Shown here in pieces: positions 7,375-50,956 of a stretch of DNA of 64,000 nt (position 1 is the first letter of the stretch; each line of letters starts with the position of its first letter). A program made the translations under genes and the position numbers. The stretch is from Halorubrum hochsteinianum. GTDB taxonomy: Archaea > Halobacteriota > Halobacteria > Halobacteriales > Haloferacaceae. Under the pieces are notes generated by a model. The model saw only the letters and a program-made list of their open reading frames with translations. It made no database searches and was not told where the DNA came from. The DNA lies in the NCBI RefSeq assembly GCF_023702125.1, contig NZ_CP098415.1:558001-622000 (forward strand). The letters run 5' to 3'.

Positions 7375-8094
7375 CTACTTCTCGTCCGCCACTCTGGCGT
7401 CCCAGTACGACACCGAGGCGACGTAGTCGCCGGGGATCGTGTTCCCGGCGAGCTCGTCGAGCGCCCGGAACGGCTTCGCGACCGCGCCCGGAAGCTCGCG
7501 GTAGAACCCGTACGGCAGCACGAAGTCGTGTTCCTCGTTCGCGAGCGTGAGCCCCGCCTCGCCGAGCATGGCGGCCACCTGCCGCTCGGAGTAGAGCCGC
7601 GAGCCCATGGGGAGCAGCCAAGTGTACAGCGTCCGCAGGCTGCGGCTGTTGAACGTGTCGAAGAACACCTGATCGCGGCTGACCCGGCAGAGCTCCCGCG
7701 CGAACGGGACCGGGTCGTCCATGAGGTGGAAAAAGCGCATCGCCACGACCGTGTCGAAGTGGTCGTCCGGGAACGGGAGCCGCGAGGCGTCGCCGCGGAG
7801 GAACTCGACCGCGTCGGCGTGGCCGGCGGCCGCGACCTTCTCGCGGGCCTGTTCGAGCATCTCGCGGGAGACGTCGAGTCCGACGACGTCCGCGCCCTGA
7901 TCGGCGAGCATCGTCGTGAACCGCCCGGTGCCGCAGGCGACCTCCAGCACGCGGTGGCCCGGATCGACGGGACCCAGCGCGGAGAGGACGGCCTCTTTCT
8001 CTCGCCGGTCGATGAGCTGTCCCCCGCCGGAGAACCGGACGTCGTCGTACTCCTCGGCGACCTCGTCGGCCTGGTACCAGTCCTGTCCCTTCAC
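7375..8094 (-). CDS. Class I SAM-dependent methyltransferase
   Basis: A 239-residue Rossmann methyltransferase. Motif I is VLEVACGTGRFT, motif II is VVGLDVSREML, and the motif III/IV region is GDASRLPFPDDHFDTVVA. It starts with GTG at 8094, with a TATA-like element about 27 bases upstream on the minus strand. The substrate is unknown; the layout resembles UbiE/MenG-type and small-molecule methyltransferases. It converges on the TRAM gene with an 11-base gap. Confidence 0.88.
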   Translation of the reverse strand: MKGQDWYQADEVAEEYDDVRFSGGGQLIDRREKEAVLSALGPVDPGHRVLEVACGTGRFTTMLADQGADVVGLDVSREMLEQAREKVAAAGHADAVEFLRGDASRLPFPDDHFDTVVAMRFFHLMDDPVPFARELCRVSRDQVFFDTFNSRSLRTLYTWLLPMGSRLYSERQVAAMLGEAGLTLANEEHDFVLPYGFYRELPGAVAKPFRALDELAGNTIPGDYVASVSYWDARVADEK

Positions 8095-8260: not shown

Positions 8261-8692
8261 TCACCCGCTCGTGGCGACGTTCTCGGCGGGTATCTTGACG
8301 ATCACCCGCGCGCCCTCCTCCTCGTCGTGGTGCGGGTACTCGTCGACGCCGAAGTAGCGGCGGGCGAGTTCGTCGATGTGTTCGCGCGCGAAGTAGCGGC
8401 GGGCGAGTTCGTCGATGTGTTCGCGCGCGCCCTCCTCGGTCAGTTCGGCCTCGCCGCGGACGGAGACGTAGCGGTACGGGTCGTCGGGGTCGAGCACGCT
8501 GACGCCGACTTTCGGATTGTTCCGGACGTTCCGCTCCTTGCGTCGCCCGCGGGCGGTGTTCACGAGGACGTGCTCCCGGTCCTCGTGGTCGACCCACACC
8601 GGGGTGACGTGGGGGAGCCCGTCCGGCCCGACGGTGGCGAAGTGCGCGTACGACTCGGCTTCGAGGATGTCGACGTGGGACTCGGGTATCAC
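8261..8692 (-). CDS. PPOX-class F420-dependent oxidoreductase with duplicated 13-residue segment
   Basis: A 143-residue flavin/F420-binding split-barrel protein (AHFATVGPDGLPHVTPVWV, VLVNTARGRRKERNV, YRYVSVRGEAEL). Near residue 95-120 the segment REHIDELARRYFA occurs twice in direct succession because of an exact 39-base tandem duplication, which lengthens the helix before the VDEYPHHD region. The frame is kept and codon use is normal, so the gene is probably still expressed. It starts with GTG at 8692, with a minus-strand TATA-like element about 27 bases upstream. The substrate is unknown. Confidence 0.88.
   Translation of the reverse strand: MIPESHVDILEAESYAHFATVGPDGLPHVTPVWVDHEDREHVLVNTARGRRKERNVRNNPKVGVSVLDPDDPYRYVSVRGEAELTEEGAREHIDELARRYFAREHIDELARRYFGVDEYPHHDEEEGARVIVKIPAENVATSG
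8351..8428. repeat. Exact 39-base tandem duplication inside a coding region
   Basis: Unit 1 (8351-8389) and unit 2 (8390-8428) are identical and begin GAAGTAGCGGCGGGC. The unit is 13 codons long, so the reading frame of the oxidoreductase is kept. Confidence 0.95.
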
Positions 8693-8843: not shown

Positions 8844-9116
8844 ATGAGTACCAGTCCCGCGGAGACCGCTGACCAAGAGCGTCTGTCGGAGACCGAGTAC
8901 CGCGACCGCCTGCGCGAGCTGCCTCCGAGCGCCAAGCTCGTCGCCAAAGTGCTGGAGGGCGACGCGCCCCTCTCACAGGGCGGCCTCGCCGAGGAGTCGC
9001 TGCTGCCGGACCGCACGGTCCGCTACGCGCTCAACCGCCTCGAAGAGGAGGGGCTCGTGGACTCGCGGTACAGCTTCAAGGACGCGCGCAAGCAGGTGTA
9101 CTACCTCACCGTCTGA
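8844..9116 (+). CDS. Small winged-helix transcriptional regulator (MarR-like)
   Basis: A 90-residue protein consisting almost entirely of one winged helix-turn-helix (KLVAKVLEGDAPLSQGGLAEES, then RTVRYALNRLEEEGLVDSR and a wing ending VYYLTV). Such one-domain proteins are frequent in haloarchaea and probably bind DNA as dimers. The upstream region (8700-8843) is AT-rich, with several TATA-like stretches. The target genes are unknown. Confidence 0.85.
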   Translation: MSTSPAETADQERLSETEYRDRLRELPPSAKLVAKVLEGDAPLSQGGLAEESLLPDRTVRYALNRLEEEGLVDSRYSFKDARKQVYYLTV

Positions 9117-9170
9117 ACACGAGGAGTACGACCGCGCCGTCTGAAGTCGAAGAGCAGGACCGCGCCGTCC

Positions 9171-9266
9171 GAACCGTCCGTTTTCGCCGTTCGAATTCGG
9201 CTGGATCCGACCGAACCGTCCGTTTTCGCCGTTCGAATTCGGCCGGGTCCGACCGAACCGTCCGGG
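9171..9266. repeat. 42-base tandem repeat, about 2.3 copies
   Basis: A unit starting GAACCGTCCGTTTTCGCCG recurs at 9171 and 9213 with two base changes, and a partial third copy begins at 9255. The array fills the gap between the regulator and the glycosyltransferase gene. Each full unit contains the palindrome TTCGAATTCG with flanking bases. No coding function is likely. Confidence 0.85.
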
Positions 9267-48842: not shown

Positions 48843-49250
48843 CGGTTATAAACAGCGGTGCGGTCGGCGCGTGCCTGCGAGCGCCCACCGGGCGCGAGCA
48901 GCACGCGCGAGGGAGTCGGTGGTCCGGAGCGAAGCGGAGGACCACCGACGAGGCTGGGGAGGTGTGAGGTGCTGTGGCGGGCGGGACTCGAAGGGGCAGT
49001 CGCGAGGGCGAAGCACGGCGAAGTAAGCACTGGAGGGAGCGAACGAAGTGAGCGACCGAAGCGCGCAGCGAGCCGCGCGAGTCCTCGCGACTGGGGCTTC
49101 GGTGGTGTTCGTGTCGATTCCCTGTTTATAAACAGTAGTCACGTACGGCCGAGCGACTGGGGCTTCGGTGGTGTTCGTATCGATCGGCGATTTATCAGAG
49201 GCAACCGCGTACGGCCGAGCGCCTTGGGCTTCGACGGTCGTGGTCGTAGC
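48843..49250 (+). repeat. Dispersed haloarchaeal repeat element, copy B
   Basis: It fills most of the gene-free stretch 48782-49316. It is the inverted counterpart of 11566-11908, with long shared blocks. It begins near TTATAAACAGCGGTGCGGTC and continues through the conserved GAGGCTGGGGAGGTGTGAGG and GGGGCTTCGGTGGTGTTCGT. From 49087 on it repeats a 66-base module. The first 60 bases of the gap hold the T-tract after the actin gene. I see no supported gene here. Confidence 0.88.
49087..49250. repeat. 66-base degenerate tandem module at the end of repeat copy B
   Basis: Modules start at 49087, 49153 and 49219 (GCGACTGGGGCTTCG, GCGACTGGGGCTTCG, GCGCCTTGGGCTTCG). The first two continue with GTGTTCGTRTCGAT, a TTTAT(A) stretch and CGTACGGCCGA; the third is diverged and incomplete. 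Confidence 0.85.
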
Positions 49251-50843: not shown

Positions 50844-50956
50844 TAGTCCCGGGCGGATTCGAACCGCCGTCAATGGCTGACTTCGGGCATCCGACCGTAC
50901 GACGCGGTCGAACTCCCTCCAAAGGCCATTATGATTGGCCACTACACCACGGGACT
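50844..50956 (-). tRNA. tRNA-Gln (UUG) with a 40-base intron
   Basis: On the minus strand the acceptor stem AGTCCCG (50956-50950) pairs with CGGGACT plus discriminator A (ending at 50844). The D-arm is GTGTAGTGGCCAATCAT. The anticodon stem-loop ATGGC-CTTTGGA-GCCAT is split after G37 by an intron at about 50879-50918. The T-arm is GGCGGTTCGAATCCGCC. The anticodon is UUG, so Gln. Mature length is 73 without CCA. The intron position (37/38) is the canonical archaeal one, removed by the bulge-helix-bulge endonuclease. Confidence 0.92.

Follow-up and report, generated by a model that had tools for sequence, protein, structure and literature searches.

Organisation of the locus

The 64,000-nt stretch of Halorubrum hochsteinianum DNA analysed here (contig NZ_CP098415.1, positions 558,001 to 622,000; hereafter the window) carries on its minus strand, at 8261-8692, a gene for a PNPOx-like split-barrel oxidoreductase of the TIGR03618 type (F420-dependent PPOX class), which starts with GTG, encodes 143 aa and contains a duplication of 39 nt. 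A methyltransferase gene lies at 7375-8094 and a divergent winged-helix (wHTH) gene at 8844-9116. These two neighbours occur within the same locus in 26 and 23, respectively, of 33 homologous loci, counts in which the genes are not always adjacent and contig ends truncate some of the loci. The 33 loci stem from Halorubrum, Halolamina, Halobaculum, Natrinema and others, and two are from bacterial MAGs; the set excludes records of the window itself and shares some assemblies with the set of 52 Halorubrum genomes considered below. Between the window and Halorubrum tebenquichense DSM 14210 the neighbours are 100% (wHTH), 98.7% (methyltransferase) and 98.9% (HisF) identical. The neighbourhood is largely conserved in Halorubrum and points to no substrate.

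Profile searches bear out the assignment to small split-barrel enzymes of the flavin/F420 type that had previously been made by reading the sequence. The protein scores 110.2 bits against TIGR03618 (Rv1155_F420), for which the curated cut-off is 79.05, and 68.3 against PF01243, for which it is 28.1. The gene is annotated as an F420/flavin-type split-barrel enzyme, with binding or use of F420H2 assigned through similarity. Halophiles contain F420, and its role there is described as undetermined (PMC8498797).

At a lag of 39 nt, 41 consecutive positions match, which yields an exact repeat of 80 nt (8350-8429) composed of two 39-nt units and 2 further nt. These 2 nt leave the register ambiguous; 8351-8428, the placement given in the original prediction, is right as one of three equivalent registers and coincides exactly with codons 89-114. 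In this register the first unit copy (codons 89-101) occupies 8390-8428 and the second (codons 102-114) 8351-8389, both on the minus strand and both encoding AREHIDELARRYF. Compared in the gene frame the units are equal at 39 of 39 nt, and the reading frame of the 143-aa gene is kept, as had been predicted. The repeat itself is real, but the peptide by which it had been labelled was off by one residue: strictly repeated is AREHIDELARRYF, and REHIDELARRYFA is present in full once and then followed by REHIDELARRYFG.

A chance origin of the repeat is excluded, because a mononucleotide shuffle of 164 kb yielded no exact tandem duplication of 12 nt or longer. The two-unit state was also found at G000:C1:566264-566692, which belongs to the window's own assembly and is therefore not independent evidence. 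With a single assembly as the source, the true genome might hold one unit and the second might be an artefact of assembly or sequencing. We regard this as exceedingly unlikely: the contig measures 2,962,044 nt in an assembly of two contigs, the repeat is short enough to be spanned by just 80 nt, and exact tandem repeats have a similar density in two relatives (see below). Assembly errors also more often collapse such repeats than create them.

Occurrence among relatives and age

At E 0.001 or better, 30 of the 52 Halorubrum genomes (one genome per species, the window's own among them) contain a match to the gene. Apart from the window's own gene, every one of the 24 near-full-length orthologues of the genus measures 381-390 nt, at 80-98% identity, and holds one unit, compared with 429 nt in the window gene. 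A further orthologue (G039) is frameshifted, being split into two overlapping pieces in different frames, and in four more genomes (G040, G029, G044, G023) the match is a weak or distant one. A recognisable close orthologue is present in 26 of the 52 genomes, the window's included and one of them frameshifted. The search yielded no intact close orthologue for 27 of the 52, a count in which lack of a match is not always lack of the gene because some genomes are incomplete (46 of the 52 reach 90% completeness with no more than 5% contamination).

The insert is absent from all 22 aligned relatives, which represent 22 of the 33 loci; according to raw translations, nine of the 11 loci outside the alignment are single-unit and two (L056 and L061) are frameshifted. 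A degenerate pattern spanning the junction of the units matches one of the 52 Halorubrum genomes, namely the window's own. At the order level 314 of 392 genomes gave a match, and among the matches listed a length of 429 nt was reached by the window's gene alone. Comparison with close relatives, which had been proposed as a check, thus shows the duplication to be lineage-specific.

The next longest genes among the matches listed, in G167 (420 nt) and G089 (414 nt), were considered as further cases of an insertion in this helix and rejected. Each has one helix copy, and the extra residues sit in an earlier loop, near residues 36-41. In L078 (G089:C2:536350-537100), from another family of the same order, the protein has an in-frame repeat of its own, DIDGEGNL, which occurs twice in a loop. 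The two frameshifted loci are L061:3001-3392 (Halorubrum sp. GN11_10-6_MGM; same assembly as G039) and L056:3001-3386 (Halolamina pelagica CDK2), and they suggest separate decay of the same gene or, alternatively, sequencing errors.

The nearest named relative, H. tebenquichense DSM 14210 (L032), is 94.6% identical to the window in an alignment of 4,812 nt that surrounds the gene. It has the same gene with the same neighbours and the same 39-nt unit, and differs in that its protein of 130 aa is without the duplication. Its single unit shows 0 of 39 differences from the units of the window, which makes the lineage of the window the one that gained an insertion. With the repeat set aside, the two genes differ at 9.0 of 86.3 synonymous sites and at 2.0 of 264.7 nonsynonymous sites (dN/dS 0.068). 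At this divergence, a duplication dating back to the species split should have left on average 1.20 differences between the two 39-nt copies, with their about 8.7 synonymous sites, and the probability of observing none would be about 0.30. Identity of the copies alone is therefore no proof of a very recent event.

The original prediction had taken the identity of the units as a sign that the event was either recent or maintained. Identity is too weak a clock for the first of these readings; in the sequences compared, the recency of the duplication rests on its absence from H. tebenquichense. The second is not supported, as nothing observed shows selection acting on the second copy.

Predicted structure and the cofactor pocket

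In the AlphaFold model of the H. tebenquichense orthologue (pLDDT 91.8, five models ranging from 91.8 to 86.8; pTM 0.85) a helix is predicted at residues 89-101, which are exactly the 13 duplicated residues. The model of the window protein (pLDDT 77.0, five models from 77.0 to 58.9; pTM 0.70) has two predicted helices, 88-99 and 102-114, and its low confidence falls in the first helix copy (pLDDT under 50 at 87-94 and 96-101), in a comparison in which the query sequences differ and low confidence is expected at the insert regardless, the insert being without homologue coverage. The strands behind the insert reach block means of 89.

The best solved relative is MSMEG_3380 (PDB 3f7e; profile E 6.4e-25), an F420H2-dependent reductase of the FDR-B / FDOR-B1 group. 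It is the top fold match of the single-unit orthologue model (3f7e_A: Z 16.5, rmsd 2.2, 125 residues; tied with 5jab_B), comes first in Foldseek and shares the same split barrel. For the model of the window protein the best match is 5jab_B (Z 13.1, rmsd 2.6, 118 residues) and 3f7e_B ranks eighth (Z 12.2, rmsd 2.9, 120 residues), matches that omit long stretches under pLDDT 60 and hence say little on the insert itself. Normalised by query length, the Foldseek TM-scores to 3f7e_B are 0.81 (orthologue) and 0.69 (window protein). The models predict that the duplicated protein still forms a PNPOx-like split barrel.

MSMEG_3380 is a homodimer whose pocket is shared between the monomers, with M34, W35, Y95, L98 and L106 contributed by one monomer and Y74 and Y76 by the other (PMC3034190). 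Counting by hand along a profile alignment places Y95 and L98 opposite I93 and L96 of the H. tebenquichense orthologue, both of which lie in the duplicated helix, and L106 opposite residue 104, which comes shortly after the helix. The aligned stretch of the mycobacterial enzyme thus supplies pocket residues too. Sequence comparison found I93 to be invariant and L96 to be nearly so. This alignment and conservation indicate that the insertion probably sits at the deazaflavin/substrate pocket, in agreement with the earlier suggestion of a place on the active-site side of the barrel. MSMEG_3380 differs in having this stretch in one copy, in the pocket residues themselves (Y95 and L98 against I93 and L96) and in that its activity was measured.

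Origin and consequences of the duplication

We searched the window and 18 further stretches of this genome (424 kb together), and 200 kb each of two relatives, for exact tandem duplications whose unit measures 12-400 nt. This genome gave 27 records, a few of which overlap; seven have units of at least 30 nt, and in 24 of the 27 the unit length is a multiple of three, a figure that, as the scan was run without gene calling, concerns unit length and not the frame of the other records. The relatives gave ten records each, with four and one units of at least 30 nt and five and seven multiples of three. Of the ten records whose unit reaches at least 24 nt, most appear by eye to be non-coding, dispersed or of low complexity. 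The type of event is common, yet its landing in a conserved helix looks like a less common outcome.

At the edges of the 39-nt unit, exactly 2 nt (CG) are shared, which is the sole exact microhomology there, and a CGCGCG run lies nearby. Two other features were examined and set aside. A 14-nt direct repeat (GAGGAGGGCGCGCG), spaced 78 nt apart in the H. tebenquichense orthologue, does not bound the 39-nt unit and was rejected as the driver. A 12-nt palindrome formed at the junction, absent from the orthologous gene of H. tebenquichense, was taken as coincidence.

We consider it likely that a slippage-type duplication occurred in the lineage of the window and was tolerated as the enzyme is dispensable, its pocket being probably impaired or altered. 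A single-copy stretch of 39 nt would have been doubled in head-to-tail orientation once this Halorubrum lineage had separated from that of H. tebenquichense. Replication slippage, or a template switch at the 2-nt microhomology near the CGCGCG run, would be the simplest route, although an edge microhomology of just CG would count against slippage. With 39 a multiple of three, the frame would have been kept and one alpha-helix doubled. In the single-unit enzyme this helix would line the deazaflavin/substrate pocket, judging by homology to MSMEG_3380. In the duplicated protein the barrel is probably intact; one helix copy would sit close to the native position and the second would add a poorly packed helix or loop at the mouth of the pocket, so that activity is probably reduced or altered. 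The allele may be near-neutral, tolerated since the gene appears dispensable, about half of the genus genomes being without an intact close orthologue. Against this reading, the low dN/dS outside the repeat speaks against a gene that has long been dead or useless. We also count as support the 8-residue repeat of the relative from the same order, which lies in another part of the protein and implies that small insertions of this type recur in the enzyme family.

A stronger version of this reading, which overlaps with it, regards the duplication as a loss-of-function step, in which the extra helix wrecks the pocket or the dimer and the gene is heading for loss. The low predicted confidence around the insert is consistent with it, as are the patchy presence of the gene in the genus and the frameshifted orthologues L061 and L056, in both of which sequencing error is possible. 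We think it somewhat unlikely, given that the frame, the start and the remaining sequence are intact, with the few nonsynonymous differences from H. tebenquichense noted above, and that the strands past the insert are confidently predicted.

Conversely, the doubled helix might reshape the substrate pocket in an adaptive allele that was selected and is possibly reversible. Tandem duplications in the omega loop of the beta-lactamase penA offer a precedent, as they too arose de novo and in frame within an enzyme's coding sequence, near the active site; selection acted on them, and phenotype and reversion were measured (PMC4169377). In the haloarchaeal case the edges of the unit share just 2 nt. 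The alignment of the helix with pocket residues fits this idea, and a tandem repeat of two identical 39-nt units could shrink back. It is very unlikely nonetheless, since no sign of selection was seen on the copies, the allele comes from a single genome, and exact tandem duplications are frequent here, predominantly in multiples of three. An elaboration, to which we give hardly any credence, is a selected reversible switch, in which either copy could fill the native helix place, so that the F420 enzyme would exist in two forms differing in substrate range, and slippage in the repeat would toggle the population between one and two helices.

In T4 lysozyme, extra residues inserted within a helix by the Matthews group were reportedly absorbed with the fold kept; those insertions, which are mentioned in PMC2924343, differ in being engineered and in concerning another fold. 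Among the matches listed, the literature on helix and tandem duplications, haloarchaeal F420 enzymes and FDORs does not report the present insertion.

The duplication is genuine, in frame and specific to its lineage. It doubles a single predicted helix in an enzyme family already known, through a common kind of mutation, and is no new system. Its importance is modest, the enzyme being ordinary and apparently dispensable. It nevertheless provides a clean natural experiment, in which one predicted helix is exactly doubled at a likely cofactor pocket and a near-identical single-unit orthologue serves as control, so that the cost of helix doubling becomes directly measurable.

Other repetitive and structured elements of the window

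Behind the divergent winged-helix gene, at 9165-9264, lies a tandem array of 2.4 copies of a 42-nt unit with 94% matches. A dispersed element at 49087-49233 consists of an inverted repeat (CAGTCGCGAGG...CCTCGCGACTG) followed by at least one unit starting with GCGACTGGGGCTTCGG. An exact match to its core pattern occurs 25 times in this genome, and the pattern is present in 21 of the 52 genus genomes. Among the matches listed, its units measure by eye 51, 54, 57, 63, 66 or 69 nt, all multiples of three, with the exception of 113 nt in G021; a shared reading frame was not evident in the arrays viewed, which were inspected unsystematically. On the minus strand, at 50844-50956, a 113-nt tRNA match to a model of 71 positions suggests an intron-containing tRNA gene.
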